The notes under the pieces: model-generated
The model's database searches: none
Told to the model about the DNA's origin: nothing
Seen by the model: the letters and a program-made list of their open reading frames with translations, nothing else
Shown: positions 8,550 through 35,577 of the stretch, piece by piece
How the letters are laid out: each line of letters opens with the position of its first letter
Numbering within the stretch: position 1 is the first letter of the stretch
Source of the DNA: Thermosphaera aggregans
GTDB lineage: Archaea > Thermoproteota > Thermoprotei_A > Sulfolobales > Desulfurococcaceae
NCBI RefSeq assembly: GCF_014962245.1
Contig: NZ_CP063144.1
Location: 1,230,582 to 1,294,581 of the forward strand
Reading direction: 5' to 3'
Length of the DNA: 64,000 bases
Position numbers and translations under genes: made by a program

Positions 8550-8837
8550 TCACCCTCCGTGTAGAGGGGGCAGAATATCTACAACATCACCATCATTCAC
8601 CACTGCAGTGTCCCCGCCTAGGAACATTACATGCCTTCCATTTACGAGTATGGTTAAGCCCTTAACTTCTATTCTTTCATCACGGATAGTGATGAACTCG
8701 TTGAGGGGTGGATGTATTCTCAAAATCTCCTTGATTAAGTCAATAAGAATCAAGGAATGGTTTTTAGGCTCGAGCGCTAATACCTCTCTTCCTGCAACAT
8801 CTTTAAGAGCACCGTAGAGACGTACTATGATTGTCAT
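8550..8837 (-). CDS. MoaD/ThiS-like sulfur carrier, paired with AOR 1
   Basis: A 95-residue beta-grasp protein. It begins with the strand MTIIVRLYGALKDVAG and ends in a free diglycine, DVVDILPPLHGG, the site that MoeB/E1-like enzymes adenylate and load with sulfur. MoaD makes the dithiolene of molybdopterin/tungstopterin, so a role in the cofactor of the neighbouring AOR is likely. It lies 38 bp downstream of the AOR gene on the same strand, hence probably one operon. A general MoaD function for the whole cell, or a ThiS/TtuB-like role, cannot be excluded. Confidence 0.8.
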   Translation of the reverse strand: MTIIVRLYGALKDVAGREVLALEPKNHSLILIDLIKEILRIHPPLNEFITIRDERIEVKGLTILVNGRHVMFLGGDTAVVNDGDVVDILPPLHGG

Positions 8838-8875
8838 TAAACCAGCCCGAGCCCGATCTATTAGGGTGTGAAAAA

Positions 8876-10663
8876 TTAAACAATAGAGGTTAAACCAAGC
8901 TTATCCAGCGTCTCCTTTAACGGGACCCCGTTGGAATCCCATCCCCTTCTAACATAGTATGCGTCCAGCATTTTCTCGAAATCCTCCCTTGTCACCACCC
9001 AACCAGTATCTTCCCTGCGCTGGTGGAATCTCGGAGGTAGCGAGTCATCCTTCCTGCTGACACCCTCTCTGACATTGAATAGTCTTGAAAGATTGTATAT
9101 TCTCTCACCTGTTTTCAGGAACTCTTCCATATCATAGTTGAATCCTATCGTGTTTAACATTTTAATATAGGTTCTGATCATTTCATCAGGCGGCTTAACA
9201 GAGTTACCGGGTATGTTGTCACATGCAACCAGAGTCCATAATGCAGCGTTCCTATCTTGGAGATACTTTGTCAGGTTAACTAGTTCCTCCATGGTAAGCT
9301 TTGATGAGACTTCAGCAGCCACCGTCCAGGCTCTCAAATGGTCTCCTCCCCTATCAGCAGTTGCGTACGCTAGCGCCATCCCTACAACACCCCTTGGATC
9401 GTAAGCCGGGATTTCAAGCCCCTTAACGTGCAGAGCGTATTCTTCAGCCTTCAGGGTTTTAGAAGCACTCGCCAAACCCTCAGCGAGAATCTCGCCTATC
9501 CCTCTCCTGTACGCTACATCGTAGACTAGTTTAACATAGCCTTCCACATCCCCCCATTGCAACTTGTATTCGCGCAAGCCGCCTTTTTCACTCAACTCCA
9601 TTAAAACCGCCGCAATGTTCCCCATGGTTATCGAGTCCATGCCCAACGCGTTGAGAACCGTGTTGATCTTGATTAAAGCCTTCCTGTCGAATATTAGTAA
9701 GTTGGAACCGTTCATGGCAACGGTCTCATATTCTATTCTCTCGGTGGTGGAGCTGTTTTCCACCACGGTTGTTCCACATTTAAGGGGGCATGTTGGGCAG
9801 GCTATTCTCTTAACAGTGATCCTCCCCCATGCATCATCAGCTAGCTCCGGCCATTTCTCATGAGATCCTAGCTGGAAGTTTTTAACAGGCAGGATTTTCG
9901 ACTCTGCCGTTACTCTTAGAACAGGGAGGTTTCCGCCCACACCTATTCCTGGGGCGACGTCCTCCATAAGCATCTTCAAGTACTTGTTGGTCAGCTCCTT
10001 CTGCAACTCCTTGTCAACGCCTCCGGCAAGGTCGTCAGCTCTAAGCCACCCTTTCACTACCACCGCCTTCAAATTCTTAGAGCCCATTACCGCTCCCAGG
10101 CCTCCGCGGCCAGCAACTCCGGGACGGGTCTTCGGGCTTTCCCTTAAGTCTATCTGTATGTTAGCAAACCTTACCAAGTTCTCGCCAGCTGGACCAATCG
10201 TTAACACTGAGTAATCCCTGAAGTACTCTCCAACCTCGTAAGTCGTCTTCCCTCTGAGATGCTCACAATCCATTAGCCTGCCTCCCTCCCTCGTAATCTC
10301 CAAGCACTTCATACCATCACTCTTCCCCTCGACAGCTATCCCTATGTAGCCAGCCCTCCTCAACTCTATTGCGAAGGAGCCTCCCGCGTTACTGTCGCAG
10401 TAAAGTCCCGTGAGCGGCGACTTAGAGGCAACGACCGTTCTAGTGAACGTCGGATAGATGAATGCTAGCGGCCCTGAAAAGATGAATAGTTTGTTCTCCG
10501 GGGACAACGAGTTAATCCCCGGCTTCACCTCCTTATACAGGTAGTAAGTAGCTAATCCCTTACCACCGATAAACTTCTCCACTATGCTGTCAGGTAATTC
10601 CTCTTCCTCAATCTTGCCTGAAGACATGTCGACACGGAGTAGGGTCTGAGCAGGATAAATCAA
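8876..10663 (-). CDS. aor: Aldehyde:ferredoxin oxidoreductase family protein (AOR 1)
   Basis: A 595-residue tungstopterin enzyme of the AOR family, which oxidises aldehydes to acids with ferredoxin as acceptor in the cytoplasm. The N-terminal domain holds the pterin-binding stretch VAGRGGLGAVMGSKNLKAV (about 183-201). The [4Fe-4S] ligands are C289, C292, C296 (ACPTCPLKC) and probably C481 (VACDNIPGN). A second pterin stretch is DPRGVVGMALAY, about 422-433. Around residue 245 the segment GGNLPVLRVTAESKILPVKN differs from the usual AOR wording, so substrate range may differ. It is transcribed with the downstream moaD-like gene and is divergent from the symporter genes. Confidence 0.92.
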   Translation of the reverse strand: MIYPAQTLLRVDMSSGKIEEEELPDSIVEKFIGGKGLATYYLYKEVKPGINSLSPENKLFIFSGPLAFIYPTFTRTVVASKSPLTGLYCDSNAGGSFAIELRRAGYIGIAVEGKSDGMKCLEITREGGRLMDCEHLRGKTTYEVGEYFRDYSVLTIGPAGENLVRFANIQIDLRESPKTRPGVAGRGGLGAVMGSKNLKAVVVKGWLRADDLAGGVDKELQKELTNKYLKMLMEDVAPGIGVGGNLPVLRVTAESKILPVKNFQLGSHEKWPELADDAWGRITVKRIACPTCPLKCGTTVVENSSTTERIEYETVAMNGSNLLIFDRKALIKINTVLNALGMDSITMGNIAAVLMELSEKGGLREYKLQWGDVEGYVKLVYDVAYRRGIGEILAEGLASASKTLKAEEYALHVKGLEIPAYDPRGVVGMALAYATADRGGDHLRAWTVAAEVSSKLTMEELVNLTKYLQDRNAALWTLVACDNIPGNSVKPPDEMIRTYIKMLNTIGFNYDMEEFLKTGERIYNLSRLFNVREGVSRKDDSLPPRFHQRREDTGWVVTREDFEKMLDAYYVRRGWDSNGVPLKETLDKLGLTSIV

Positions 10664-10696
10664 GACGAACCCACCACAATATTAGTTAGAGGATTA

Positions 10697-10707
10697 AGCA
10701 ATATTTA
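10697..10707 (-). promoter_or_regulatory. Core promoter (TATA-like) of AOR 1
   Basis: Read on the minus strand the sequence is TTAAATATTGCTTAAT, with TAAATATTGCT lying 34-44 bp before the AOR 1 start. The same 11-mer occurs in mirror orientation at 10792-10802 before the divergent symporter genes. Position and composition fit an archaeal TATA box; a regulator site is the alternative. Confidence 0.5.
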
Positions 10708-10746
10708 ACAAGGTAACAAGTACTCCATGGAGATGTTTTAACTATA

Positions 10747-10767
10747 ATTGAATAATGATTGTTCAAT
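10747..10767. promoter_or_regulatory. Palindromic operator candidate between AOR 1 and the symporter genes
   Basis: A 21-bp imperfect palindrome with exact outer arms ATTGAA and TTCAAT and inner AAT/ATT matches around a central G. It lies midway between two outward-facing identical promoters, so one bound protein could control both directions. The outer ATTG/CAAT recurs at 12698-12714 and 19941-19964. Confidence 0.4.
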
Positions 10768-10791
10768 GTCCAAAAATCACCATGTTTCAAC

Positions 10792-10802
10792 TAAATATTG
10801 CT
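10792..10802 (+). promoter_or_regulatory. Core promoter (TATA-like) of the symporter operon
   Basis: TAAATATTGCTCAAT on the plus strand, 30-40 bp before ATG 10832. It is an exact 11-bp mirror copy of the AOR 1 promoter element at 10697-10707. A start of transcription near 10822 would leave a short leader with GGTTGAT just before the ATG. Confidence 0.5.
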
Positions 10803-10831
10803 CAATAGAAATGTCAAGACTGGGTTGATAT

Positions 10832-11122
10832 ATGAGTGTGCAGGAAGATAGAAACATTCCTAACGATGTCGATGTAATACCTCCAACTCCTATGAAGTGG
10901 GAGTATCTGTGGATAGTCTACCTGGTCTTCGTAACGGGCTTAGTCTGGTATGTGTCTGAAAACCTCCTTGTGTGGGAACCAAGTAGTAGTATACTCGACC
11001 TGCCGAAGCCGGTGGTAGGAGCGTTAATGATTGCCTCGACCTGGCTCGTAGTGAACTTCCTGGTTTTCACAGTCTACTACAGTGTACTCAGAAAGCGTTT
11101 AAGAAGCCTGAGGGAGGCGTGA
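10832..11122 (+). CDS. Small membrane partner of SSS-family symporter
   Basis: A 96-residue protein with a hydrophilic N-terminus and two membrane helices (about 26-47 and 60-83), ending in a basic tail, SVLRKRLRSLREA. It ends four bases before a sodium:solute symporter gene. Small two-helix proteins in this position (as YhdT before PanF, and DUF3311-type proteins) are known partners of SSS transporters, so I infer an accessory subunit. I do not recognise the exact family. Confidence 0.65.
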   Translation: MSVQEDRNIPNDVDVIPPTPMKWEYLWIVYLVFVTGLVWYVSENLLVWEPSSSILDLPKPVVGALMIASTWLVVNFLVFTVYYSVLRKRLRSLREA

Positions 11123-11126
11123 AGTC

Positions 11127-12632
11127 ATGAACCTATCCCAGTGGTCGTGGATTGTACTCTCCACGTTAATAGGCTTCTACATTACCATGTTGATTGCGGG
11201 ATACGTAGCCTCTAGGAGGCTTAAAACAGGGCTCCGCGAATTCTACGTGGCCGGAGGGACATTGTCAGCGCTGACAATAGTATTTCACTATATGGCGACT
11301 TACATGGAGGCATGGGAGTTCGTTGGAATGCCCGCGGTCATAGTGAGCGAGGGTTTTGAATGGTGGGTTATGGAGATGATCTTCTATCTAAGCTTTGTAG
11401 CGCTCTTCCCGCTTGTATCGCTGAGGATATACAGGGCGGCTAAACTGCACAATTACGTGACCCCGACAGACCTTATAGTGCACAGGGTAGGTGGGTTCGA
11501 GAAACCGCTCAGAATACTCATATCGTTAATGATATTCTATGCCACTATTATCTATATAGGCATGATCTACATCCCCGCGGCTGGAGTCCTGTCCGCCTCA
11601 ACAGGAGGTGAGATCCCTTATCAAGCATTCCTGGCAATCTACGTGATCTTCATGATCATTTACTTGTTAATGGGAGGCTTCAGGGCTGCAGCATACGCTA
11701 ACATCATCTCAGGGGTCGCGTTCATAGTGGCCTTCATAGCAATGATCTACGCTACACTAACCTACTGGGGAGGCTTCAGCAACCTAGCCTGGAGTGCATA
11801 CACCTCGGAAATCGCTCCACAAGTCTTTCAGAAAACCCAGCCAACCCAATACTTTTTAACAATGCTGCTTGTTTACGGATTGTCGTGGCTGTTTATACCT
11901 CACTTGGTGACAGCTTTCTATGCTTCAAAAGATAGCAAGGCAGTGTTGGTCGGGGGCTTGGGCTCCAATGCCGGTTTCTTCCTTGGAGCTTTTGTATCCC
12001 CCTTGTTGCTGGGACTGGGTATTCTAGCATTGTTCGGTTCAAGCCTGCCTGAGGTCGAAGTTGTGGAAGGCTATGTGCCACTACTCTTCATTCAGCTTTT
12101 CGGGTATGGGCCGATACTCATATTGATAATAATTGGGCTCATCGCTATAACAAGGTCGACGATCGATACAATGCTACTTCTAGCATCCTCAATAGTGGAT
12201 GTTGACATAATAGAGAAAGCCTTAGGGTTGAAAATATCCGAGCGCTCGAGGAAGATGGTTACCAACCTCGTGGTGATTGCCGTTGCCTTAATAAGCATCC
12301 TGCCAGCATTAAACCCTGAAGCGCCAATGGTTATTATCGGATACGAGTTGGCCTGGCCAGCATACGCCGTGATAGCATGGCCTACCATGATAATGCTGCT
12401 CTGGCCGAGAGCGAACAAGTACGGAGGTTTCGCCTGCTACCTGGCAGGTTTCGCTTCGCTCCTCTTATTCACCTACGTTATCTGGCCTGAAGCACCGCAC
12501 AACCCGTTCGGTCTCTGGGAGGGGACGTTGCCTTCTCTAATCGCCGTAGCCACGCTAATCACAGTCTCCTTGCTAACGCCTCCACCGTCGAAACAGTTCG
12601 TAGAGAGCTATTACAGGTTGAATAAGCAATAA
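11127..12632 (+). CDS. Sodium:solute symporter (SSS family)
   Basis: A 501-residue membrane protein with about 13 hydrophobic helices and the LeuT-like SSS fold. It shows an early YVAGGTLSALTIVFHYMATY, the SSS-like GGFRAAAYANIISGVAFI near 180-200, and IAITRSTIDTMLLLASSIVDVDI near 340, a region that lines the Na+ site in this family. It should import a solute with Na+. Neighbouring aminotransferases and AOR suggest an amino acid, amine or organic acid, but the substrate is not readable. It follows its small partner gene by four bases. A T-rich stretch after the stop may end the transcript. Confidence 0.88.
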   Translation: MNLSQWSWIVLSTLIGFYITMLIAGYVASRRLKTGLREFYVAGGTLSALTIVFHYMATYMEAWEFVGMPAVIVSEGFEWWVMEMIFYLSFVALFPLVSLRIYRAAKLHNYVTPTDLIVHRVGGFEKPLRILISLMIFYATIIYIGMIYIPAAGVLSASTGGEIPYQAFLAIYVIFMIIYLLMGGFRAAAYANIISGVAFIVAFIAMIYATLTYWGGFSNLAWSAYTSEIAPQVFQKTQPTQYFLTMLLVYGLSWLFIPHLVTAFYASKDSKAVLVGGLGSNAGFFLGAFVSPLLLGLGILALFGSSLPEVEVVEGYVPLLFIQLFGYGPILILIIIGLIAITRSTIDTMLLLASSIVDVDIIEKALGLKISERSRKMVTNLVVIAVALISILPALNPEAPMVIIGYELAWPAYAVIAWPTMIMLLWPRANKYGGFACYLAGFASLLLFTYVIWPEAPHNPFGLWEGTLPSLIAVATLITVSLLTPPPSKQFVESYYRLNKQ

Positions 12633-12633
12633 C

Positions 12634-12647
12634 CTCTTCTTTTTTCT
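12634..12647 (+). terminator. T-rich terminator after the symporter gene
   Basis: CTCTTCTTTTTTCT directly follows the stop codon. Poly-T runs without a hairpin are the usual intrinsic termination signal in archaea. Confidence 0.45.
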
Positions 12648-12697
12648 CAACCATTGCACCTAGCTTTCTTAAAACCTTGGCAAAATAGCGAGGGGAA

Positions 12698-12714
12698 ATT
12701 GGAATATTTCCAAT
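12698..12714. promoter_or_regulatory. Palindrome upstream of aminotransferase 1
   Basis: ATTGGAATATTTCCAAT, a perfect 7-bp inverted repeat around TAT. It lies about 15-30 bp upstream of a TATA-like AGTTTATTTTC (12727-12737) and 44-60 bp before the start codon. The position suits an activator or regulator site, for example for the linked Lrp protein. Confidence 0.45.
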
Positions 12715-12757
12715 AAGATTATGAATTAGTTTATTTTCTGACCATTGAAAACATATA

Positions 12758-14158
12758 TTGGTGGAACATTTGTCTGAAAAAACCCTTACCGAGGAATATG
12801 TCAGCAAATTCTCTGAGAAAACTCCTAAGTCGAGAGAAATATGGTTGAAACTACGGAAGCTAACCCCGTACGGAGTTCATAGTAATTGGAGAGTGTTCGA
12901 GCCCCACCCCTTGATGCTGCAGAAAGCCAAGGGTTCAAGAGTCTGGGATGTCGACGGCAATGAGTACATAGACTACACCATGGCTTTCGGCGCTCTCGTA
13001 GTGGGCCACGCAAATCCCGTGCTTCTCGAGAAAGTGAAGCAGAAAATGGATGAGGGGACAATATATGGTTATGAGACAGAGTTAAGCTGTAAGTTAAGCG
13101 AGGTTGTGACCCGCAGGTACGGGTTCGACATGGTTAGATTTTCCAACACAGGTTCTGAGGGAACCCTTCTAGCCATAAGGCTTGCCCGAGTAGCAACTGG
13201 GAGAAGCAAGATACTCAAGTTCGAAGGACACTATCACGGCTCACACGAGCTGTTAATGGTAGGGGTTAAACCCGATTTAAAGCATGCTGGACACCCTAAG
13301 AAGCCCAGGTCGGTCCCAACAGGCTTTCCCTACCATGTAGTTCCGAAAGAGTTGGCTGAAAACGTGGTGGTTGCGCCCTGGAATGATGCTGAAGCGATTG
13401 AAGAGATAATGAAAGTACATGGAAACGATATTGCCGCGATCATCATGGAACCTGTTGCCATGAACATGGGGGTTGTCCCCGCTAAGAAAGACTTCATGGT
13501 CTTCCTCAGGAAAATCGCTAACGAATACAACAGCTTACTGATATTTGACGAGGTTAAAACATCAGGTATGTGGTATAGGGGTGCCCAGGAGTATTTCGGG
13601 GTTAAACCAGATATAATGGTAGCGGCGAAAGCAATAGGCGGCGGCTTCCCCTTTGCTGCTGTACTAGCTAGCAAGGAACTGCTCGAGCTGGTTGGGCCTC
13701 GCAAAGTCCCCCATGGAGGTACGTTCAACGCTAATCCATTATCAGTTTACGCCGCATACGTAACGCTGACAGAACTGCTCACGGAGTCAAATCTAGCGTA
13801 CACGCACAAGCTAAGTGAGGAGCTGGCGAAAGGCTACAGGGATATTATAGAGGACAAGGGGTTTGAAGCCCATGTTGTCCAAGTAGCCAACAAGGGCACC
13901 ATCTACTTCTCAAGGGAGGAAATCAATACTTGGAGAGACTTCGTGTTGAAAGTCAAGTGGGGACCTTGGTACGTTTGGACTCTCGGCATGGTGATAAGGG
14001 GGATAATACCTCAGGCAATGGCTTACGACGAGCAGTGGACGATTTCAATAATGCACACGAGAGATGATATTCAGAAAACACTGGAGGTAGCAAACATCGT
14101 GGCAGCGGAGATGAAAGGTAGGGCAACGGAAGCGATCGCGATAGAAGAATCTATATAG
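12758..14158 (+). CDS. Class III aminotransferase (glutamate-1-semialdehyde aminomutase-like)
   Basis: A 466-residue PLP enzyme of fold type I. Near the N-terminus it has VWDVDGNEYIDYTMAFGALVVGHANP. The phosphate-binding part is RFSNTGSEGTLLAIRLARV (about 127-146), then FEGHYHGSHE, the PLP-contact LLIFDEVKTSG, and the Schiff-base lysine in VAAKAIGGGFPFA (about 290). It resembles glutamate-1-semialdehyde aminomutase, but the linkage to catabolic genes argues for an omega- or beta-amino-acid transaminase. TTG 12758 and GTG 12761 are possible starts. A TATA-like element 26-30 bp upstream and the lack of a ribosome site suggest a leaderless message. Confidence 0.85.
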   Translation: MVEHLSEKTLTEEYVSKFSEKTPKSREIWLKLRKLTPYGVHSNWRVFEPHPLMLQKAKGSRVWDVDGNEYIDYTMAFGALVVGHANPVLLEKVKQKMDEGTIYGYETELSCKLSEVVTRRYGFDMVRFSNTGSEGTLLAIRLARVATGRSKILKFEGHYHGSHELLMVGVKPDLKHAGHPKKPRSVPTGFPYHVVPKELAENVVVAPWNDAEAIEEIMKVHGNDIAAIIMEPVAMNMGVVPAKKDFMVFLRKIANEYNSLLIFDEVKTSGMWYRGAQEYFGVKPDIMVAAKAIGGGFPFAAVLASKELLELVGPRKVPHGGTFNANPLSVYAAYVTLTELLTESNLAYTHKLSEELAKGYRDIIEDKGFEAHVVQVANKGTIYFSREEINTWRDFVLKVKWGPWYVWTLGMVIRGIIPQAMAYDEQWTISIMHTRDDIQKTLEVANIVAAEMKGRATEAIAIEESI

Positions 14159-14159
14159 G

Positions 14160-14167
14160 TATTTTTT
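14160..14167 (+). terminator. Poly-T after aminotransferase 1
   Basis: TATTTTTT starts at the stop codon and is followed by a second pyrimidine-rich run. It separates the convergent aminotransferase and Lrp genes. Confidence 0.4.
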
Positions 14168-14272
14168 CAAACCTTTTCTCCAATTCCCTGAAGAACCTGT
14201 TAAGCTAAAGCCCAAATTCACCAAGCAGTAGAAAACCAAAAATACGTGAAGCACGGCTACAGTAAGCTAGCT

Positions 14273-14794
14273 CTAACCTGCTTCCCGGAGGGTGTTTTGA
14301 GTAGTTGGCTGCTCCGGTATCTCTATGTGCAAATAAGTTTCCTCTTTAACCACTTTCGCCACTACCATGGTTGACGATCTCTCGATCATGGGGGAGTTTA
14401 TCAGTTCCTCTAAAAACTCCATGTACTTAGGTTTCGACGGGAACTTTGCAATTACTATGAAATCCACGTCCCCCAGCACATAGTACACTGATTGAACATA
14501 TGGGTTTTTAGCCAGGAACCTGCCTACTTCTTCATGATACTTCGGACCATACTTAGCCCTAACATGCATGACTATAAAATACTCGTATCCTAGTTTATCG
14601 CTGTCCAGGATAACCCCGTACTTTTTAATTATCCTGCTCATCTCTAACTGTCTCAGCCTGTGGTATATGGTAGACTTAGGTATTTTCAAAACCTTCGCCA
14701 ACTCTCTAACGCGAAGCTTAGGGTTTTCCTGTAGGTGTTTCAAAATAGCCAGATCTATTTCATCAAGCTCTTTCCTTCTCCTCATTTTGAACAC
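14273..14794 (-). CDS. Lrp/AsnC family transcriptional regulator
   Basis: A 173-residue protein with an N-terminal winged helix-turn-helix (LRVRELAKVLKIPKSTIYHRLRQL, about 27-50) and a C-terminal RAM domain (about 70-150) that senses amino acids and makes dimers and octamers. It lies among aminotransferase, dehydrogenase and AOR genes and is divergent from aminotransferase 2, so it probably controls this island in response to an amino acid. The start is GTG 14794 or ATG 14785. The C-terminus is about 20 residues longer than in minimal Lrp proteins. Confidence 0.9.
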   Translation of the reverse strand: MFKMRRRKELDEIDLAILKHLQENPKLRVRELAKVLKIPKSTIYHRLRQLEMSRIIKKYGVILDSDKLGYEYFIVMHVRAKYGPKYHEEVGRFLAKNPYVQSVYYVLGDVDFIVIAKFPSKPKYMEFLEELINSPMIERSSTMVVAKVVKEETYLHIEIPEQPTTQNTLREAG

Positions 14795-14836
14795 ATTACT
14801 AATTTAATAGCGAATAATTTTAAACTTTTTCTAAAA

Positions 14837-14847
14837 TTCAAGTTGAA
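14837..14847. promoter_or_regulatory. Small palindrome between lrp-like gene and aminotransferase 2
   Basis: TTCAAGTTGAA, a perfect 5-bp inverted repeat around G, in the 96-bp divergent gap. An ACAG/CTGT repeat follows at about 14849-14863. Either could bind the adjacent Lrp-type regulator; short palindromes in AT-rich DNA also arise by chance. Confidence 0.25.
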
Positions 14848-14893
14848 ACAGTTTATTTCTGTCTAATAAAGAACATTAACCGGTGGATACTTG

Positions 14894-16204
14894 GTGAAAT
14901 TAGATCCTTACTTAGAAAAGCGTGAAAAATACATTATGAAAGGTGTTTCACTAGCCCATCCTATCACGATTGTGAAAGGCCGGAACGCTCTTCTCTACGA
15001 TATTAACGGGAAGGAATACGTGGATTTCACCAGTGGAATAGGGGTTACCAGCTTAGGGCATGCTAACCCTGAGTTGGTAAAAACCGTCACGGAACAGTTA
15101 GAGAAGCTATGGCACACCTGCTTCATGGTCACTAACTATCCCTCGTGCGCTGAGTTAGCGGAGAAGCTGGCTAAAATAGCTCCGGGCGTTTCCGAGAAAC
15201 AAGTACTGTTTCAAAACAGCGGGTCTGAAGCCGTTGACAACGCTATCAAGATAGCGAGACAGGTCACGGGTAGATACTATATCGTTTCATATGAGAATAG
15301 TTTCCACGGGAGGGGCGCGTACGGGTTCGCGCTATCTGCAACGGGTAAATGGAAACCCTACAAGGTAGGGTTCGACCCCCTACCACCAGGGGTTGAGCTA
15401 ATACCATACCCTTACTGCTATAGATGCCCGTTTAAACAGGAATACCCTGGTTGCGGATTAGCCTGCTTAGATTACGTTAAGAAATGGTTTATCAATACAA
15501 GAGTCCCCCTTGAGAGAACGGCTGGATTCCTCATTGAAGTCGTGCAAGGAGAAGGAGGATACGTGGTAGCCCCGTTGGATTATGTAAGAGAGCTTAAAAA
15601 ATTCCTTGAGGAAAACAATGTGCTCCTCATAGATGACGAAGTACAGGCAGGCTGGGGTAGAACCGGGAAGCTCTGGGCCATAGAAAACTTCGGGGTTGAG
15701 CCGGACATAATGACTACGGCTAAGGCGATCGCTAATGGGCTTCCCCTATCCGCAGTCGTAGGAAGGAAGGAGTTGATGGAGAAAACCCACCCAGGAAGCT
15801 TCGGAGGCACCTACGGAGGCAACCCCGTCTCATGCGCGGCGGCTTTGAAAGTAATCGAGGTAATGCAGAGGGATAGGTTACCGGAAAGAGCTGTGGAACT
15901 GGGTGAGATGGTTAGGAAAAGGCTGAATGAACTCTACGAGAAGTATGAGATAGTGGGTGATGTTAGAGGGCTCGGCGTCATGCAGGCAATAGAGCTGGTG
16001 AAGGATCGTAAAACAAAAGAACCCGCATCCAGTGAGACCTCGAAAGTGATCGATAAAGCGAGAGACAAGGGCTTACTGCTACTGAAAGCTGGCCTATACC
16101 ACAACGTTATCAGGCTACATCCCCCGTTAACCATTGAGAAGGAGATATTGGAGAAAGGCCTTGACTTGCTGGAGGAGTCGCTGAAAGAGGTTTTAAAGGT
16201 GTGA
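14894..16204 (+). CDS. Class III aminotransferase (4-aminobutyrate/beta-alanine type)
   Basis: A fold-type-I PLP transaminase of about 436 residues. It has VDFTSGIGVTSLGHANPEL near 45-63, FQNSGSEAVDNAIKIAR near 110-126, SFHGRGAYGFALSATGK near 138-154, DDEVQAGWGRTGK near 249-261 and the PLP lysine in TTAKAIANGLPLSA near 276-289. A CYRCPFKQEYPGCGLAC insertion is rich in cysteines. The family moves the amino group of GABA, beta-alanine, ornithine or similar. TTG 14891 is in frame, but GTG 14894 is better spaced from GGTGGA at 14882. It overlaps the next dehydrogenase gene by four bases, so the two act in one pathway. Confidence 0.87.
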   Translation: MKLDPYLEKREKYIMKGVSLAHPITIVKGRNALLYDINGKEYVDFTSGIGVTSLGHANPELVKTVTEQLEKLWHTCFMVTNYPSCAELAEKLAKIAPGVSEKQVLFQNSGSEAVDNAIKIARQVTGRYYIVSYENSFHGRGAYGFALSATGKWKPYKVGFDPLPPGVELIPYPYCYRCPFKQEYPGCGLACLDYVKKWFINTRVPLERTAGFLIEVVQGEGGYVVAPLDYVRELKKFLEENNVLLIDDEVQAGWGRTGKLWAIENFGVEPDIMTTAKAIANGLPLSAVVGRKELMEKTHPGSFGGTYGGNPVSCAAALKVIEVMQRDRLPERAVELGEMVRKRLNELYEKYEIVGDVRGLGVMQAIELVKDRKTKEPASSETSKVIDKARDKGLLLLKAGLYHNVIRLHPPLTIEKEILEKGLDLLEESLKEVLKV

Positions 16205-17694
16205 AGCCTGTGGGGTCAATGCTACAGCCGCCGAAATCCGAGTATGGAGTGCTGAAAATCTACGTAAACGGTAAATGGATCGAATCTGGCACCAACACTT
16301 ACCTAGACTTTTATGATCCAGGTTTAGGGAAAGCTATAGGGAAAGTACCATTAGTGACCAAGGAGGAAGTGGACGAGGCTGTCGAGTCAGCGTACGAAGC
16401 CTTCAAGTCCTGGAGCACCTTGCCGATGCCTGAGCGAGCCCAGTATTTATTCAAAATTAAACACATTCTCGAGGAGAACAAGGAGTTGCTGGCCCGGGTG
16501 AACACGCAGAATCATGGAAAACTCCTACGGGAGTCTCGTGGCGATGTGAAAAGGGCGATAGAAAACGTGGAGGCCGCTATCTCAGTAGCCTACTCACTAG
16601 CGAAAGGAGAATACCAGCACGAGATAGCTAAGGGAATTGATGAAACTCTAATTAGAGAGCCGTTAGGTGTTTTCACTGTTGTAAGCCCTTACAACTTTCC
16701 AATAATGATACCTTTCTGGTTCATACCCTACGCCCTCGTCCTAGGCGACACTCTGGTTGTTAAAGCAAGTAGCACAACCCCACTGCCAATAGCTGTCACG
16801 CTTGAGCTTCTCACCAACATGTTACCCCCAGGGGTTGTAAACCTGGTGTATACTGATCACAGGAACGGAGAGTACTTGGTAACCCATCCGTTAATAGAGG
16901 GAACAGCCTTCGTGGGCACAAGCGACGCAGCTCTGAGACTCTATGAGCTCTCAGCTAAGCATGGAAAAAGATTTCTAGCAGGCGGAGGCGCTTCAAACTA
17001 CGCGGTCGTCATGCCTGATGCCGACATGGATAAAACCATAAACGCGCTGCGAGACGCTAAATTCGGCAACACGGGGCAGAGATGCCTGGGGATACAGAAC
17101 ATTGTAGTAGTAGGGGGTTCAGACTTTTACGAGGAATTTAGGAACGCGTTTGTAGACTCAGCTAAGAAGATTAGAATAGGCCACGGTCTCGACGAAGAAT
17201 CTGAAATGGGTCCGATGGCAAGTGTGAAGTACAGGGAAAACGTGATCAGGATGATCGAGACCGGTCTCGGCGAGGGCGCCAAGGCAGTCCTTGATGGGAG
17301 AAATTACGTGAACCCTGAATTCCCGAAAGGGTTCTATCTCGGACCCACAGTCCTCGAGGATGTGAACCCTAATATGAAGGTTGCCCGCGAAGAGATCTTC
17401 GGCCCCGTGGCTAATTTGATGAGGGCGGAGACCCTTGAAGAGGCTGTTGAGTACGTGAATAAGAACAAATATCATCATACTGCAGTAATATTCACGAGAA
17501 ACGGTAAGTGGGCTAGGGAATTCGTGCACAACGTCTACGTGGGGAATGTAGGAGTAAACATTGGTATAGCAGCCCCGGTGGGCTGGTTTCCTTTCGGAGG
17601 TAGACGATTAGCAGGATTAGGAAGCCATCATCCGCAAATCGATGTTGTCGATTTCTTCACTGATAGGAAGGTCGTGGTGGAGAGATGGTGGTAG
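16201..17694 (+). CDS. CoA-acylating aldehyde dehydrogenase, methylmalonate-semialdehyde dehydrogenase type
   Basis: A 497-residue member of the aldehyde dehydrogenase superfamily. The catalytic cysteine is C295 in NTGQRCLG. The NAD-site segment VSPYNFPIMIPFWF (161-174) and LAGGGASNYAVVMPDAD (259-275) match the wording of MmsA/IolA enzymes. The general-base glutamate of ordinary aldehyde dehydrogenases (LELGGK) is replaced by alanine, as expected for enzymes that release the acyl group to CoA. The likely reaction is (methyl)malonate semialdehyde + CoA + NAD+ to acetyl- or propionyl-CoA, CO2 and NADH. The GTG at 16201 overlaps the aminotransferase stop; ATG 16219 is an alternative. Confidence 0.85.
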   Translation: MKPVGSMLQPPKSEYGVLKIYVNGKWIESGTNTYLDFYDPGLGKAIGKVPLVTKEEVDEAVESAYEAFKSWSTLPMPERAQYLFKIKHILEENKELLARVNTQNHGKLLRESRGDVKRAIENVEAAISVAYSLAKGEYQHEIAKGIDETLIREPLGVFTVVSPYNFPIMIPFWFIPYALVLGDTLVVKASSTTPLPIAVTLELLTNMLPPGVVNLVYTDHRNGEYLVTHPLIEGTAFVGTSDAALRLYELSAKHGKRFLAGGGASNYAVVMPDADMDKTINALRDAKFGNTGQRCLGIQNIVVVGGSDFYEEFRNAFVDSAKKIRIGHGLDEESEMGPMASVKYRENVIRMIETGLGEGAKAVLDGRNYVNPEFPKGFYLGPTVLEDVNPNMKVAREEIFGPVANLMRAETLEEAVEYVNKNKYHHTAVIFTRNGKWAREFVHNVYVGNVGVNIGIAAPVGWFPFGGRRLAGLGSHHPQIDVVDFFTDRKVVVERWW

Positions 17695-17726
17695 GAGAAC
17701 AATGTTTTTTACACTTAAAACCAGCA

Positions 17727-18023
17727 TCATCCTCCGTCAAAGGGTATTGTCAACACAACCTCATCCTTGTCGCTCAAATCCTTGTCAAGATCGTGAACTA
17801 TTGAACCATTAACTATGATGAGGGTTCCCTGGTTCAGTCTTCCATCCTCGCTGAAAAACCATTTACCGAGTTCTTCACCGTGTGCACGAGCCAGCTCCTT
17901 TAGTAAATCCCTCAGCTTGGCTCCTTTTTCCAGCGTTAATTCCTCGCTTTCCAACCCGGTTAGTGATTGGAAAAGAGGGGCTAAGTATTTCACTTTAACC
18001 CTTATACAGTTCTGCAACAACAT
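17727..18023 (-). CDS. MoaD/ThiS-like sulfur carrier, paired with AOR 2
   Basis: A 98-residue beta-grasp protein that begins with IRVKVKYLAPLFQSLTGLES, has TLIIVNGSIVHDLDKDLSDKDEVVLTIPF and ends in diglycine (FDGG), the modified terminus of MoaD/ThiS proteins. It overlaps the end of AOR 2 by 29 bp, so the two are translationally coupled. It differs strongly from the other MoaD-like protein at 8550-8837, so this is not a recent tandem copy. Confidence 0.8.
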   Translation of the reverse strand: MLLQNCIRVKVKYLAPLFQSLTGLESEELTLEKGAKLRDLLKELARAHGEELGKWFFSEDGRLNQGTLIIVNGSIVHDLDKDLSDKDEVVLTIPFDGG

Positions 18024-19902
18024 AGTCTAATCCCAGCTCGTAAAGCTTTCCTGGCGTCGGCCTCCCCTCCTCATCCCAGCCGGCTATCTCGTAGAATAGT
18101 TTAACAGCCTTGTCAAACTCCTCCTTCTTAATCCTCTGTCCCTTCCTAGAGCCGGACTCTAACTCCTCGAAAAACCTTGGCGGCAACACGTCTTCTTCGC
18201 GCTTAAAACCTTCTCGAACATTGAAGGCTCTTGCAAGGTTGAAAGCTCTCTCGCTCGCCTTCATCAAGCTCCAGAGGCTCATCCCCCAGCCCGTGGCAGC
18301 GTTAACTATCTCGACCATGTGATTGGGTGTTAAAACCCCGGCTGAGTGAGGCGTGAAGACAAACTTGCACACCCCCATGCAGTCCTCAAGACCCCACCAT
18401 AACATCCCATAGTAGACGGCTTTCACCTTCTCGTGATCAAGCATCAGCCTGTTAACGGGTCTGGTTAACCCGAGCGCGGTAAGGTGTTGAGTGATTCTCT
18501 CATAGGTTGCGTCATGCGGGGCTTGCATGTGATCAGCCCCTATAGGTGAGAGAGCGTACTGCAAGCCGACGCCTACTTTACCCCGGGGTTCATGCATAGG
18601 TATCTCCCTGGATTTAACATGCATCGCGTACTTCTCAGCTCCTCGCCCAATCTTCTCAGCAGCCCTCCTCACCCCTTCAGCCAGCACATCCCCGAAGCCT
18701 TCACGCTTGACAATCATTTCCAGCAGTCTCAGCGCTCCATTTCCATCGCCAAACCTTACCTCTAACCCCCCGGTGTCCTCCGGGGTTAGCACACCCTTAT
18801 CGAAAAGCTCCATGGCGAAGGCTACGGCTACACCCGCGCTGATAGTGTCAACGCCGTATGCGTTGCAGATCTGGTTTGCCTTCGCAATAACGTTGAGATC
18901 GCTGACACCGCACAAGGGTCCGAACGATACGATGGTTTCATACTCGGGACCGCCGTAAGAGGGATCCGTCTCATACGGCTCACTAGTTTTAACATCTCTC
19001 TTACAGCGGATTGGGCATGCGAAGCACCCGGATTTAGATACCAGTATTGTCTTGTTCAAAACCTCGCCGCTTACTTTGAACGCCTCCTTAAACGACCCTC
19101 CCCTGAAGTTTAAAGTGGGAAGTATTCCATCCTTGTCAAAAGGAGTGATCAGCTCTGCCGTACCGTACTCGCTCCTCGAGACAGCGCCTGGCTGCTTCTT
19201 CCAGTTATCGTTAAACCACTTAACAATCTCCACGAGCTTCTTCTCATCATAGAACTTCACTGTTTTCCCGGTTGCTCTCACTGCAATAGCCTTAAGGTTT
19301 TTAGAACCCATAACGGCTCCAAGTCCTCCCCGTCCCGCTGCATACCTGTTTTCAAACATGATATTGGCAAACCTCACCAGCTTCTCGCCTGCAGGCCCGA
19401 TGCATCCAATCCTAGCCAAGGGCTCTCCAAGCTCCTTTTTAATCTCCTCAACTGTTTCCTTCGTCGTCAACCCCCATAAACGGGTAGCATCCCTGAGTTC
19501 CGCACGCCCGTCTTTAATCCAAAGGTAGACGGGTTTCTCGGACGCCCCCTCCACGATGACCACGTCGAAACCCGAGTTCTTAAGCTCCGGTGCAAAGAAG
19601 CCGCCAGCCTCTGACTCGCCGTAAGTCCCTGTCAGAGGGGATTTCGCGGCAACAACAATCCTGTTGACACCTGGAACAGGGGTCCCCGTGATCACGCTTG
19701 TAGCGAAAACCAGCTTGTTCCCCGGGCTTAAAGGGTCGGTTCCAGGTTTAAGCTCCTTGAAGAGAACATATGCGGCAATCCCTCTTCCACCCAGATACTC
19801 TCTGTACAGCTCCTCGGGAACCTCCTCAATCCTTAGACTCCCAGTGGATAAGTTTACCCGGAGCCATTTACCATTAAACCCGTAGGGCAATGTAAACACC
19901 AT
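17995..19902 (-). CDS. aor: Aldehyde:ferredoxin oxidoreductase family protein (AOR 2)
   Basis: A 635-residue AOR-family tungstoenzyme. The pterin motif is AAGRGGLGAVMGSKNLKAI (about 188-206). The [4Fe-4S] ligands are C293, C296, C300 (GCFACPIRC) with C508 or C512 in EDCMGVCKF as the fourth. The second pterin region is EPRGKVGVGLQYALSPIGADHM, about 438-459. It is longer than AOR 1 and clearly a different subfamily (compare YGTAELITPFDKDGILPTLN near 246-265). The gene closes the island on the right and carries its own palindrome upstream at 19941-19964. Substrate unknown; aldehydes from amino-acid breakdown are likely. Confidence 0.92.
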   Translation of the reverse strand: MVFTLPYGFNGKWLRVNLSTGSLRIEEVPEELYREYLGGRGIAAYVLFKELKPGTDPLSPGNKLVFATSVITGTPVPGVNRIVVAAKSPLTGTYGESEAGGFFAPELKNSGFDVVIVEGASEKPVYLWIKDGRAELRDATRLWGLTTKETVEEIKKELGEPLARIGCIGPAGEKLVRFANIMFENRYAAGRGGLGAVMGSKNLKAIAVRATGKTVKFYDEKKLVEIVKWFNDNWKKQPGAVSRSEYGTAELITPFDKDGILPTLNFRGGSFKEAFKVSGEVLNKTILVSKSGCFACPIRCKRDVKTSEPYETDPSYGGPEYETIVSFGPLCGVSDLNVIAKANQICNAYGVDTISAGVAVAFAMELFDKGVLTPEDTGGLEVRFGDGNGALRLLEMIVKREGFGDVLAEGVRRAAEKIGRGAEKYAMHVKSREIPMHEPRGKVGVGLQYALSPIGADHMQAPHDATYERITQHLTALGLTRPVNRLMLDHEKVKAVYYGMLWWGLEDCMGVCKFVFTPHSAGVLTPNHMVEIVNAATGWGMSLWSLMKASERAFNLARAFNVREGFKREEDVLPPRFFEELESGSRKGQRIKKEEFDKAVKLFYEIAGWDEEGRPTPGKLYELGLDYVVAELYKG

Positions 19903-22870: not shown

Positions 22871-25137
<2,267 letters not shown>

Positions 25138-33682: not shown

Positions 33683-35509
33683 CTACTTCAACTCTACAAA
33701 GTTCTCTAACACGGGTATGGTGAAGGAGAGGTTGAGCCTTTCCAGGGTTGATTTAAGTGGGACACCGTTTTCATCCCAACCTCTTAGCTTGTAGTACTGG
33801 CTGAGCATCTCGTCGTATTTAACAGGGTCGAGCTTCGCGCCTGCGAATGGTCCCTTGGTTAAGGGGTGTTTAAACCATCTAGCAGGGGGATAATCCATTG
33901 TTCTATCCCAGCCTGAGTGCTCCCTTATCCAGAAAGCCCTGATCAAGGAGTATATTCTCTGCGCTACTACATGTATGTCGTCGAAAGACCATGAGACCCC
34001 TGTCACAGCGGTGAGGAGTTTCGGATAGTAATCCAGGTTTAATCCAACCTCAACCCACGGTAGCCTGCACGTTGTCAGGCTCTCAAACATCCCGCCCCTG
34101 ATGTTTTGAAGGAACACCAGCCTCTCCACTTTCTCACTCGAGTAGGAGAACCTATCAGTCTTTACCTCGTAGCTTATAATCCATGCATCCTTGTGGTGTG
34201 CTCCAATGGATGAGGTTCCGTAAGCGAGCGCCATGCCTGGGGCTGTGTGACAGTTGTAAGCCGATATCTCGAGTCCCTTAACATGCATTGCGAACTCTGC
34301 TGCCTCCTTACCTAGTCCACGAGACATCCTCATTACTCCTTCAGCAAGGAATGCGCCGAGACCCTTCCTGTAAGAGGTATCAACGACCAGCTCTCTCACA
34401 GCCCTGTAATCCCCCCATTCAATCCTCTCCCGGAGCAAGCCTTTCTCACTTGCCTCCATTGCAAACCCTATGCTGCTCCCAAGGGTTATCGTATCCACAC
34501 CCATCATGTCTGCTAACTTGTTGATCTCGGCAACCTTCTTTAGATCAGGAAGGAGGATGTTGCTTCCAAGCATTGCAACATTCTCGTAGTCAAGCTCGCT
34601 CTTCTCGCCGATCTCGTCGTTTACAACATTGCCGCACTGCATGTTGCAGTAGGGGCATCCTTTCCTGTCAACCTTAAGCTTCTCCATTAAGTCGCCGCTT
34701 ATTGTTTCATAAAGCTCCCACACCCCCTCCCTGAAGTTCATTGTGGGTAGTACACTGTTCTGGTTGCTCCAAACTATTGTTGACATCGTGCCCTGCCTAA
34801 TCCAGAAATCATAGTTGTCGCTCTGGGTAATGCTCTTGTATGCTTCCTCGCTAAGCTTCCTAAGCTCTTCAGGGTTTGCTACAGGAGGCTCCATGGTTCC
34901 CTTGATCACTAACGCCTTCAACTTCTTGCTCCCCATCACAGCGCCCACTCCAGGCCTTCCGCCGCTCCTTCCTTTCTGCGATACAATGGTGGCATACCTA
35001 ACCAGGTTCTCGCCGGCCGGGCCTATTAAAAGGGTGCCCACGTTTCTGCCGTGTTTTTTCACAATAGCATCTTCGGCTTCAAAAGTATCCTTACCCCACA
35101 AGTCTTCAGCTGGAAGAATCTCAACCTTATTGTTTTCAACATAAATGTACACCGGGTTTTTAGAAGCCCCTGTAACCACTACGGCGTCGTACCCGCTTCT
35201 TTTCAAATGATAGGAAGCCATGCTGCCAAGGTTGCCATCTCCATACCCGTTTGTTAACGGGCTTTTACACGCTACCTGTATTTTACCGCTACTTGGTAGC
35301 GGGAGTCCCGACAAGGGCCCGTTAGCGAAGACTAAAGCGTTATACGGGGATAAGGGATCCGCTCCCTGCGGCACTAAATCCCATAGAAGCCTGGCCGCAA
35401 GCCCCCTGCCGCCAATATACTCCATGTACAGCTTCGCGTCAAGGTTAACCTCCCTTACCTTCTTAGAAGTTAAATCAACGTGAAGGATCTTACCCCACCA
35501 GCCCTTCAT
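33683..35509 (-). CDS. aor: Aldehyde:ferredoxin oxidoreductase family protein (AOR 3)
   Basis: A tungstopterin oxidoreductase of about 608 residues. The pterin motif is GGRPGVGAVMGSKKLKAL (about 185-202). The [4Fe-4S] ligands are C287, C290, C294 (GCPYCNMQC), with a likely fourth in TTCRLPW. The segment SAYNCHTAPGMALAYGTSSIGAHH replaces the DPRG wording of AOR 1. No moaD-like gene accompanies it. The start is ATG 35509 (GTG 35515 is in frame), preceded by AGAGGTG. A TATA-like CAAATATTATTTATCC lies in the 62-bp gap to the upstream DUF2139 gene, so it has its own promoter. Confidence 0.92.
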   Translation of the reverse strand: MKGWWGKILHVDLTSKKVREVNLDAKLYMEYIGGRGLAARLLWDLVPQGADPLSPYNALVFANGPLSGLPLPSSGKIQVACKSPLTNGYGDGNLGSMASYHLKRSGYDAVVVTGASKNPVYIYVENNKVEILPAEDLWGKDTFEAEDAIVKKHGRNVGTLLIGPAGENLVRYATIVSQKGRSGGRPGVGAVMGSKKLKALVIKGTMEPPVANPEELRKLSEEAYKSITQSDNYDFWIRQGTMSTIVWSNQNSVLPTMNFREGVWELYETISGDLMEKLKVDRKGCPYCNMQCGNVVNDEIGEKSELDYENVAMLGSNILLPDLKKVAEINKLADMMGVDTITLGSSIGFAMEASEKGLLRERIEWGDYRAVRELVVDTSYRKGLGAFLAEGVMRMSRGLGKEAAEFAMHVKGLEISAYNCHTAPGMALAYGTSSIGAHHKDAWIISYEVKTDRFSYSSEKVERLVFLQNIRGGMFESLTTCRLPWVEVGLNLDYYPKLLTAVTGVSWSFDDIHVVAQRIYSLIRAFWIREHSGWDRTMDYPPARWFKHPLTKGPFAGAKLDPVKYDEMLSQYYKLRGWDENGVPLKSTLERLNLSFTIPVLENFVELK

Positions 35510-35577
35510 ACCCACACCTCTTTAATAATACACTTGGCAAGGATAAATAATATTTGGTTGAGTATAGGAGATCAGTA

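Follow-up and report, generated by a model that had tools for sequence, protein, structure and literature searches.

The locus examined spans positions 8550–19902 of a 64,000-nucleotide stretch of Thermosphaera aggregans DNA (the window), and its features are collected in Table 1. All ten genes described in the initial annotation were recovered as open reading frames at or very near the coordinates first given for them, with Pfam and NCBIfam backing each assignment, and the reported overlap between the aminotransferase and dehydrogenase genes measures 4 bp (16201–16204), while AOR2 and MoaD2 share 29 bp. The curated NCBIfam cut-offs were missed by ALDH, AT2, both MoaDs, and AT1. The locus is a composite of three units: unit A, consisting of MoaD1, AOR1, a small protein, the SSF symporter, and AT1; unit B, consisting of Lrp and the divergent AT2-ALDH pair; and unit C, consisting of AOR2 and MoaD2.

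Table 1. Features of the locus and its neighborhood, in window coordinates
Feature	Coordinates	Strand	Assignment and remarks
Block A+B	8550–17694		Between MCM (ends 8371) and MoaD2 (17727–18023), relative to congener G077
MoaD1	8550–8837	−	Ubiquitin-like sulfur carrier, C-terminal GG; PF02597, 35.3 bits; cognate to AOR1; module A
AOR1	8876–10663	−	AFOR_N+AFOR_C (PF02730+PF01314); tungsten aldehyde:ferredoxin oxidoreductase, unnamed subclade
AOR1/small-SSF divergent promoter region	10664–10831		TTG-N9-CAA dyad at 10759 (TTGTTCAATGTCCAA); weak
Small protein, 96 aa	10832–11122	+	Two-TM-like (TM call by eye), family-less; putative SSF partner
SSF	11127–12632	+	Sodium:solute symporter family transporter; PF00474, 110.5 bits
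Candidate Lrp-type operator	12699–12713		TTGGAATATTTCCAA; upstream of AT1; weak
AT1	12758–14158	+	Class-III aminotransferase; Aminotran_3; GSAM/HemL-like, separate clade
Lrp	14273–14794	−	Lrp/AsnC regulator, BarR-like; divergent from AT2
AT2	14891–16204	+	GABA/beta-alanine-type omega-aminotransferase; Aminotran_3; TIGR00700, 460.4 bits; 1SF2 alignment
ALDH	16201–17694	+	CoA-acylating, (methyl)malonate-semialdehyde DH-like; Aldedh; best family TIGR01722, 424.5 bits
MoaD2	17727–18023	−	Sulfur carrier, ThiS/MoaD; cognate to AOR2; backbone, outside inserted block
AOR2	17995–19902	−	Second tungsten AOR, another unnamed subclade; AFOR_N+AFOR_C; backbone

Comparison with related genomes indicates that block A+B, eight genes in all, looks horizontally acquired, since it is closer to another family, with 73–80% identity where MCM reaches only 53%, than to the congener, where MCM is 89% identical. 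For AOR1 and AT1 the corresponding values are 80% to genomes of family f2 (MCM 52–53%) and 68–72% to the congener. The trees for the block are incongruent, and at the empty site in the congener (L179) only 224 bp separate MCM from MoaD2. No direct repeat was found in a search of the block ends and there is no compositional shift (47.4% GC versus 48–49%), so no insertion mechanism can be named. Conservation of the island across Desulfurococcales, as raised in the initial annotation, is patchy (6–8 of ~195 genomes) and looks horizontal; the linkage of AT1, SSF, and AOR1-MoaD1 is kept in six. The AOR2-MoaD2 pair belongs to the genus backbone: in the congener (G077) the order is MCM-MoaD2-AOR2 with no A+B between, and the AOR2 counterpart there, 86% identical to ours, adjoins MCM. 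The original picture of an island bounded by two AOR-MoaD pairs is thus correct as a description of position and not of a unit of inheritance. The two pairs do not delimit a single unit, as AOR2-MoaD2 stands beside MCM without the other genes in G077, and in G004 and G036 separate contigs carry the AOR1/AT1 and AT2/ALDH parts. A looser link is possible because AOR2-MoaD2 lies near AOR1-MoaD1 in two genomes, as a tandem AOR1-MoaD1-AOR2-MoaD2 in G170 and as pairs 4.6 kb apart in G049. Together with the TTG-N9-CAA dyads upstream of AOR2 (19942 and 20000), this would be consistent with AOR2-MoaD2 functioning within the same system, with two AORs for two aldehydes. We consider this conceivable but unlikely, because the same backbone site in G077 lacks AOR1, AT1, SSF, and ALDH as well as the dyad upstream of AOR2, because AOR2-MoaD2 occurs with no AOR1 nearby in G073, G152, and G137, and because module A occurs with no AOR2 at the locus in G067, G115, G004, and G036.

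The two AORs are divergent and their MoaDs quite different, as first described, with 36% identity between AOR1 and AOR2 and 30% between MoaD1 and MoaD2, both of which end in GG. The MoaDs score 35.3 and 36.2 bits with the beta-grasp profile PF02597, above the cut-off of 22.5, and 46.9 and 47.5 bits with TIGR01687, slightly below the cut-off of 49.5. MoaD1 adjoins AOR1 in all eight genomes with an AOR1 orthologue, and identities within the MoaD1 clade are 36–77%, compared with 15–30% to the MoaD2 clade; every MoaD clade tracks its own AOR clade, in agreement with the earlier proposal that each AOR has its own MoaD. The genome contains six AFOR_C genes, of which three (AOR1, AOR2, and an AOR at 633 kb) adjoin a MoaD gene, so the pairing is common but not universal. 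AOR1 is 36–39% identical to 1AOR, 1B25, and 9mqx and, judged by residue columns, retains the four Fe-S Cys as well as Tyr312, Glu313, and His448. The second-shell Thr243, conserved in the aldehyde-oxidizing clades, is replaced by Asn (Asn245 in AOR1) in 10 of 10 members of the AOR1 clade, so the activity of AOR1 may differ from plain aldehyde oxidation. AOR2 retains the Cys, Thr243, Tyr312, Glu313, and His448 equivalents, and AOR3 (33683–35515) is the true FOR orthologue of the genome (59% identity). The strict tracking of AOR clades by MoaD clades would also suit MoaDs that act as subunits, SAMP-like modifiers, or regulators of the AORs instead of as tungstopterin sulfur carriers, and archaeal MoaD/SAMP proteins are known to conjugate to proteins as well (PMC11323500). 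This alternative is improbable, as the C-terminal GG is retained in all, MoaD-like proteins of Aromatoleum did not co-purify with AOR, and deletion of the AOR-linked UblC (TK1065) of T. kodakarensis reduced AOR activity to ~54% and eliminated that of FOR in pyruvate medium, which fits cofactor synthesis (PMC11323500).

As judged from sequence, module B matches the BarR cluster of Sulfolobales in its anatomy. In a 2,225,959-bp Sulfolobaceae genome, which we take to be that of S. acidocaldarius, the only match to Lrp at E ≤ 1e-25 lies at 1963896–1964348 (46% identity). The published ChIP peaks for Saci_2136/2137 are at 1964012/1964490, which places this single match, on coordinates, at the published map position of BarR. 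Lrp and AT2 diverge across a gap of 96 bp, compared with the published gap of ~170 bp between the Lrp and aminotransferase genes in S. acidocaldarius. The best PDB matches of Lrp are to Grp of S. tokodaii, and in an alignment with Grp (2E7W) the ligand pocket residues V99, G101, D104, and T136 are retained, with Ser in place of T134 and Val at position 103. The divergent Lrp-AT2-ALDH arrangement is found in several families, including a genome matching S. tokodaii (L189); in G071, AT2 is present and the dehydrogenase absent. AT2 is 34–36% identical to the Sulfolobales enzyme and scores 460.4 bits with TIGR00700, under the curated cut-off of 506.65 bits. The 1SF2 alignment shows that it retains the active-site residues of E. 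coli GABA-AT (Ile50, Arg141, Glu211, and Arg398). For ALDH, the best of all families is TIGR01722 (424.5 bits, under the cut-off of 448.5), and the top PDB matches are all MMSDH. The catalytic Cys and the Arg in the GxRC and KRxIENVE motifs are retained in comparison with 5TJR and other MMSDH chains, and the region of the general-base Glu is replaced, as in MMSDH. The genome also has genes of the type that encodes ADP-forming acetyl-CoA synthetase.

There is strong evidence that the genes of module A share one function: AT1 and SSF orthologues occur in an identical set of six of ~195 genomes of the order, and each of the six, which belong to three families and show three gene orders, has AOR1-MoaD1 within ~6 kb of AT1/SSF. 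The small protein adjoins SSF in 6/6 loci and has no Pfam family above the cut-off, nor at E = 10. No published report of this linked set was found in the literature, and a literature search combining AOR, beta-alanine, and aminotransferase gave no match. The assignment of AT1 as a class-III aminotransferase stands at the level of Aminotran_3, but AT1 is not an ordinary omega-transaminase, being GSAM/HemL-like and outside the HemL clade. Its score with TIGR00713 (HemL) is 332 bits, under the curated cut-off of 527.3 bits, and it branches with a Sulfolobaceae group in a clade of their own. AT1 carries the motif DEVKTSG where HemL-type enzymes have DEVMTGFR, and the equivalents of the PLP Lys, Arg32, and Glu406 are retained. 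ALAD/HemB is absent from the genome, leaving AT1 no heme-pathway context, and a HemL role was ruled out by this absence and the separate clade. A wider contig search with AT1 gave only distant HemL-like matches (≤37%), and an AlphaFold model of AT1 from the six orthologues was discarded (mean pLDDT 49).

Candidate operators were also considered, a bacterial promoter/terminator scan having no meaning for archaea. There is no TTG-N9-CAA in the Lrp-AT2 intergenic region (14795–14890), such dyads being found instead in the AOR1/small, AT1, and AOR2 promoters. A de novo k-mer search found ATGTCCA/TGGACAT in 5 of 17 promoter regions (0.27 expected); as a shared signal this stays a hint because shuffles yield k-mers with higher counts.

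We favor, with a probability of about 0.6, a reading in which the acquired block between MCM and MoaD2-AOR2 carries two linked, separable modules for catabolism of non-proteinogenic beta/omega-amino acids. It is built on the observed gene content, synteny, co-occurrence, empty site, and residue conservation, from which we infer every reaction, the direction of AOR1, the role of MoaD, and the substrates. The pathway suggested initially, with uptake, transamination, and two semialdehyde oxidations, is supported at the sequence level by the BarR-like Lrp-AT2-ALDH set and by the genetic tie of AOR1 to AT1 and the symporter. In module B, the BarR-like Lrp would sense the amino acid and control AT2, which would transfer to a 2-oxo acid the amino group of beta-alanine or of a closely similar compound (3-aminoisobutyrate, for instance); ALDH would then convert malonate semialdehyde to acetyl-CoA, CO2, and NADH, with ADP-forming acetyl-CoA synthetase yielding ATP from the acetyl-CoA. 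In module A, SSF and its small partner would import an amino acid, GSAM-like AT1 would convert it to a semialdehyde, and AOR1, matured with sulfur delivered by MoaD1, would oxidize this to the acid with electrons passing to ferredoxin. The substrate of module B is most likely of the beta-alanine class; candidates for module A include 4-aminobutyrate, 5-aminovalerate, and a second beta-amino acid. The product of AT1 might be a beta-keto acid, which AOR1 could not oxidize. At roughly even odds, module A would represent an undescribed amino-acid fermentation unit in which a GSAM-like transaminase is paired obligately with an AOR from a new subclade, served by a MoaD and a symporter of its own, such that beta/omega-amino-acid deamination leads to reduced ferredoxin and not NADH. 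On this reading the unit would be passed among archaeal families as a cassette, accompanied by an acetyl-CoA branch of the BarR type.

The same genes could serve a module that is biosynthetic or an electron sink if AOR1 acted mainly in reverse, reducing an acid to the aldehyde with reduced ferredoxin for amination by AT1. Acid reduction by AORs is known (PMC6365974, PMC9295118) and the Asn replacing the second-shell Thr in AOR1 is unusual; however, published reverse rates are very low, the strict co-inheritance of the symporter with AT1 fits uptake and catabolism, and module A is linked to a BarR-type set for degradation (module B), making this direction quite improbable. Another reading, that general peptide-fermentation genes came together in module A by chance, is given almost no weight here. 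Adjacency at one locus could mislead in a compact genome, but this reading is disfavored because the 6 of ~195 genomes that have AT1 are exactly those that have SSF, with three gene orders in three families.

The proposed catabolic modules can be compared with several known systems. The BarR/beta-alanine aminotransferase/malonate-semialdehyde dehydrogenase cluster of Sulfolobales (PMC4977709, PMC10201364) likewise has a divergent Lrp and class-III aminotransferase with an adjacent semialdehyde dehydrogenase (as in S. tokodaii), and its BarR is matched by the Lrp described here. In contrast, our locus lies in an anaerobic Desulfurococcales-type genome, appears mobile, and is linked to an AOR module, and no equivalent of the 15-bp semipalindromic operators of the shared intergenic region was found in the Lrp-AT2 gap. 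AOR-MoaD adjacency as such is already known, from clusters in which a stand-alone MoaD lies beside an AOR and which are likewise sporadic and probably mobile (Iyer et al. 2006, PMC1779556; PMC2948915; TK1065-TK1066, PMC11323500); here a transaminase and a symporter are linked, moeB and moaE are absent from the block, and two AOR clades each have their own MoaD clade. Ferredoxin-linked tungsten oxidation of an amino-acid-derived semialdehyde has a parallel in P. furiosus FOR, proposed to oxidize glutaric semialdehyde (PMC12096430), but AOR1 is only 36% identical to it, with Thr243 changed to Asn, and the true FOR orthologue here is AOR3. HemL-like class-III enzymes for beta-amino compounds, in a host without porphyrin genes, are represented by Kat of lysine fermentation and the Mesorhizobium beta-transaminase (PMC3149608), from which AT1 differs in its separate clade, shared with a Sulfolobaceae group, and in having an AOR, not a thiolase, as its partner.

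For most clades of the AOR family no physiological substrate has been assigned, and an AOR clade that is co-inherited with one transaminase and one symporter offers a direct, testable path to its substrate. The locus likewise tests whether AOR-linked MoaDs serve single enzymes. It suggests that the beta-alanine switch based on BarR functions beyond Sulfolobales, in an anaerobe, and the block points to a new route for gaining energy from unusual amino acids.

The initial annotation described this island as bounded by two pairs of a tungsten aldehyde:ferredoxin oxidoreductase (AOR) and a ubiquitin-like sulfur carrier (MoaD), and its ten ORFs are real, lie at or very near the positions claimed for them and carry the claimed domains. 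The AORs are divergent (36% identity between AOR1 and AOR2), as are MoaD1 and MoaD2 (30%), and the claimed overlap of the aminotransferase and dehydrogenase genes amounts to 4 bp between AT2 and ALDH, with 29 bp shared by AOR2 and MoaD2. The observation was right; its interpretation as a single amino acid fermentation system was only partly so.

Module A consists of MoaD1, AOR1, a 96-aa protein (small), the SSF symporter and the class-III aminotransferase AT1. Among about 195 sampled genomes of the order, AT1 orthologues (cut-off at least 65%) occur in six, namely the source genome, its congener G071, G004, G036, G067 and G115, and SSF orthologues in the identical six; AOR1 is found in these and additionally in G170 and G049, and G025 carries a remote relative (45%). 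All five genes are confined to about 6 kb in each of the six genomes, arranged as divergent MoaD1-AOR1 / small-SSF-AT1 (window, G067, G115, G071), AT1 / small-SSF-AOR1-MoaD1 (G004) or SSF-small-MoaD1-AOR1 / AT1 (G036). Linkage kept through reordering, in three families, is strong evidence for a joint function, the six genomes not being fully independent owing to relatedness and transfer.

Positions of features (window coordinates unless a locus or genome is named)
Feature	Position	Remark
MCM	ends 8371	left of block
Block, modules A and B	8550-17694
AGCAATATTTA, two copies	~10697-10707, ~10794-10804	opposite orientations, AOR1/small intergenic region, near a dyad
TTG-N9-CAA dyads	10759, 12699, 19942, 20000	island
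small	10832-11122 (+)
ALDH	16201-17694
MoaD2	17727-18023
AOR2	17995-19902
Overlapping GltD/NfnL-like flavoprotein and FNR-like genes	22871-25137	read by eye
AOR3	33683-35515
MscS-like gene, G077	L179 8632-9053	two overlapping pieces
Second AOR, G071	L097 14541-17964	with ClC-type channel (by eye)
MttB-like methyltransferase and corrinoid protein, G049	L090 4872-6916	beside Lrp-AT2-ALDH (by eye)
AOR1 relative	L176 9312-13087	elsewhere in phylum
AOR-family protein, source genome	L075 11458-13245 (+)	~935 kb

The island genes were mapped one by one on the DNA surrounding orthologues in other genomes. The congener G077 has the order MscS-AOR2-MoaD2-MCM with MoaD2 and MCM separated by just 224 bp, whereas in the window these two genes flank MoaD1-AOR1-small-SSF-AT1-Lrp-AT2-ALDH. 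Because G077 shares the flanks and carries the empty site, AOR2-MoaD2 is genus backbone, the island is a composite, and the block either entered the window or disappeared from G077. Sequence identities speak for insertion, since those of AOR1, AT1 and ALDH run counter to those of MCM: AOR1 and AT1 are 79–80% identical to those of G067/G115, from another family, where MCM is only 52–53%, and 68–72% to those of G071, where MCM is 89%; ALDH is 74–78% in the G067/G115 family, with no orthologue in G071 or G077. Neither repeats nor a compositional shift was found at the block ends. The two-piece match of the G077 MscS-like gene suggests a frameshift, and the second AOR of G071, between module A and AT2, is 32–38% identical to the others compared.

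That AOR2-MoaD2 belongs functionally with module A is unlikely, despite a tandem AOR1-MoaD1-AOR2-MoaD2 in G170, proximity of the two pairs in G049 and TTG-N9-CAA dyads upstream of AOR2, given its backbone position in G077, its occurrence alone in other genomes, and module A without it alongside in G067, G115, G004 and G036. The dyad is a simplified form of the 15-bp BarR site, found four times in the island's 908 intergenic bases and once in the window's other 3264 (binomial estimate ~0.01, three sites having been seen by eye before counting); in related promoters spacing 9 alone is enriched (7 vs 1.9). Because of that prior sighting, and because the Lrp-AT2 gap contains none, the dyads are only a hint of candidate Lrp sites.

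Module B (Lrp / AT2-ALDH) resembles a known unit. The sole match of the window Lrp at E<=1e-25 in a 2,225,959-bp genome, which we take to be S. acidocaldarius, lies at 1963896-1964348, coinciding with the location given for BarR, and Lrp-AT2-ALDH occur together in a 2,694,756-bp genome, presumably S. tokodaii. Published peaks for BarR in S. acidocaldarius are at 1964012 and 1964490. BarR is a beta-alanine-specific Lrp protein divergent from a beta-alanine aminotransferase gene, and a gene for a semialdehyde dehydrogenase adjoins the pair in S. tokodaii (PMC4977709, PMC10201364). The closest PDB matches of the window Lrp are Grp, a close paralogue of BarR, and its pocket retains V99, G101, D104 and T136, with T134 replaced by Ser. 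AT2 retains Ile50, Arg141, Glu211 and Arg398 of E. coli GABA-AT, and ALDH is best described as a putative CoA-acylating (methyl)malonate-semialdehyde dehydrogenase. The genome has alpha-type genes of ADP-forming acetyl-CoA synthetase, an enzyme that can use acetyl-CoA, the expected product. Since module B is also found without module A (G160) or on other contigs (G004, G036), it represents a unit of known type that here has become joined to module A.

AT1 scores highest with GSAM-type models, yet under their cut-offs; its fully supported clade lies outside HemL, with a Sulfolobaceae group as sister. The PLP Lys and the equivalents of Arg32 and Glu406 are retained, and DEVKTSG replaces DEVMTGFR. 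A heme role is unlikely because ALAD is absent from the source genome. HemL-like enzymes of organisms without porphyrin genes proved to be beta-transaminases (PMC3149608). The sister genes lie near agmatinase and hydantoinase/carbamoylase-type amidase genes, with urease in one genome, a weak hint of omega-amino or ureide-derived substrates. This sister clade (L083, L100-L102, L192) is multi-copy and also neighbors allantoate/hydantoinase-type amidase, amino acid permease and saccharopine-dehydrogenase-like genes, with a urease operon in L192, possibly a ureide or omega-amino pathway.

AOR1 forms a separate subclade (37% to AOR, 1AOR; 36% to FOR, 1B25; 39% to 9mqx) retaining the four Cys, Tyr312, Glu313 and His448. 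The second-shell Thr243, otherwise conserved, is Asn in 10/10 clade members, including 48–51% relatives with MoaD elsewhere in the phylum (L176, L177); the L176 relative lies, as read by eye, beside Fe-S genes and one for an FAD-linked oxidase, with no AT1 or SSF there. A terminal GG is common to all MoaD members, whose two clades, MoaD1 and MoaD2, track AOR1 and AOR2 without mixing. The proposal of a dedicated MoaD for each AOR is reasonable, as removing single carriers in T. kodakarensis reduces certain tungsten enzymes or eliminates them (PMC11323500), and not new, the adjacency having been interpreted in 2006 as dedicated tungsten-cofactor supply (PMC1779556).

The source genome, one contig of 1,305,106 bp, has six AFOR_C genes and seven ThiS/MoaD matches. 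Its AOR sensu stricto (77% to 1AOR) maps to 633 kb, and AOR3, 59% identical to P. furiosus FOR (1B25) and without an adjoining MoaD, is probably its formaldehyde/glutarate-semialdehyde oxidoreductase. The L075 protein has the first cluster Cys changed to Asp, as described for the taurine-oxidizing WOR5/ASOR; on the opposite strand, ~5 kb from it, is a very divergent AOR paralogue (24%, with a gap in the His448 column). The overlapping GltD/NfnL-like and FNR-like genes close to the island may provide an NAD(P)H-ferredoxin link.

Observed directly are the gene content, the synteny, the co-occurrence, the empty site and the conserved residues. In the proposed scheme SSF would import an amino acid, and AT2 and ALDH would convert a beta-alanine-type substrate to acetyl-CoA, CO2 and NADH. 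AT1 would yield a semialdehyde that AOR1 would oxidize to an acid with reduced ferredoxin, MoaD1 delivering dithiolene sulfur to the AOR1 cofactor. The parts of the island are of known kinds; what is new, as a variant, is their combination in module A and its transfer, as favoured here, together with a BarR-type module.
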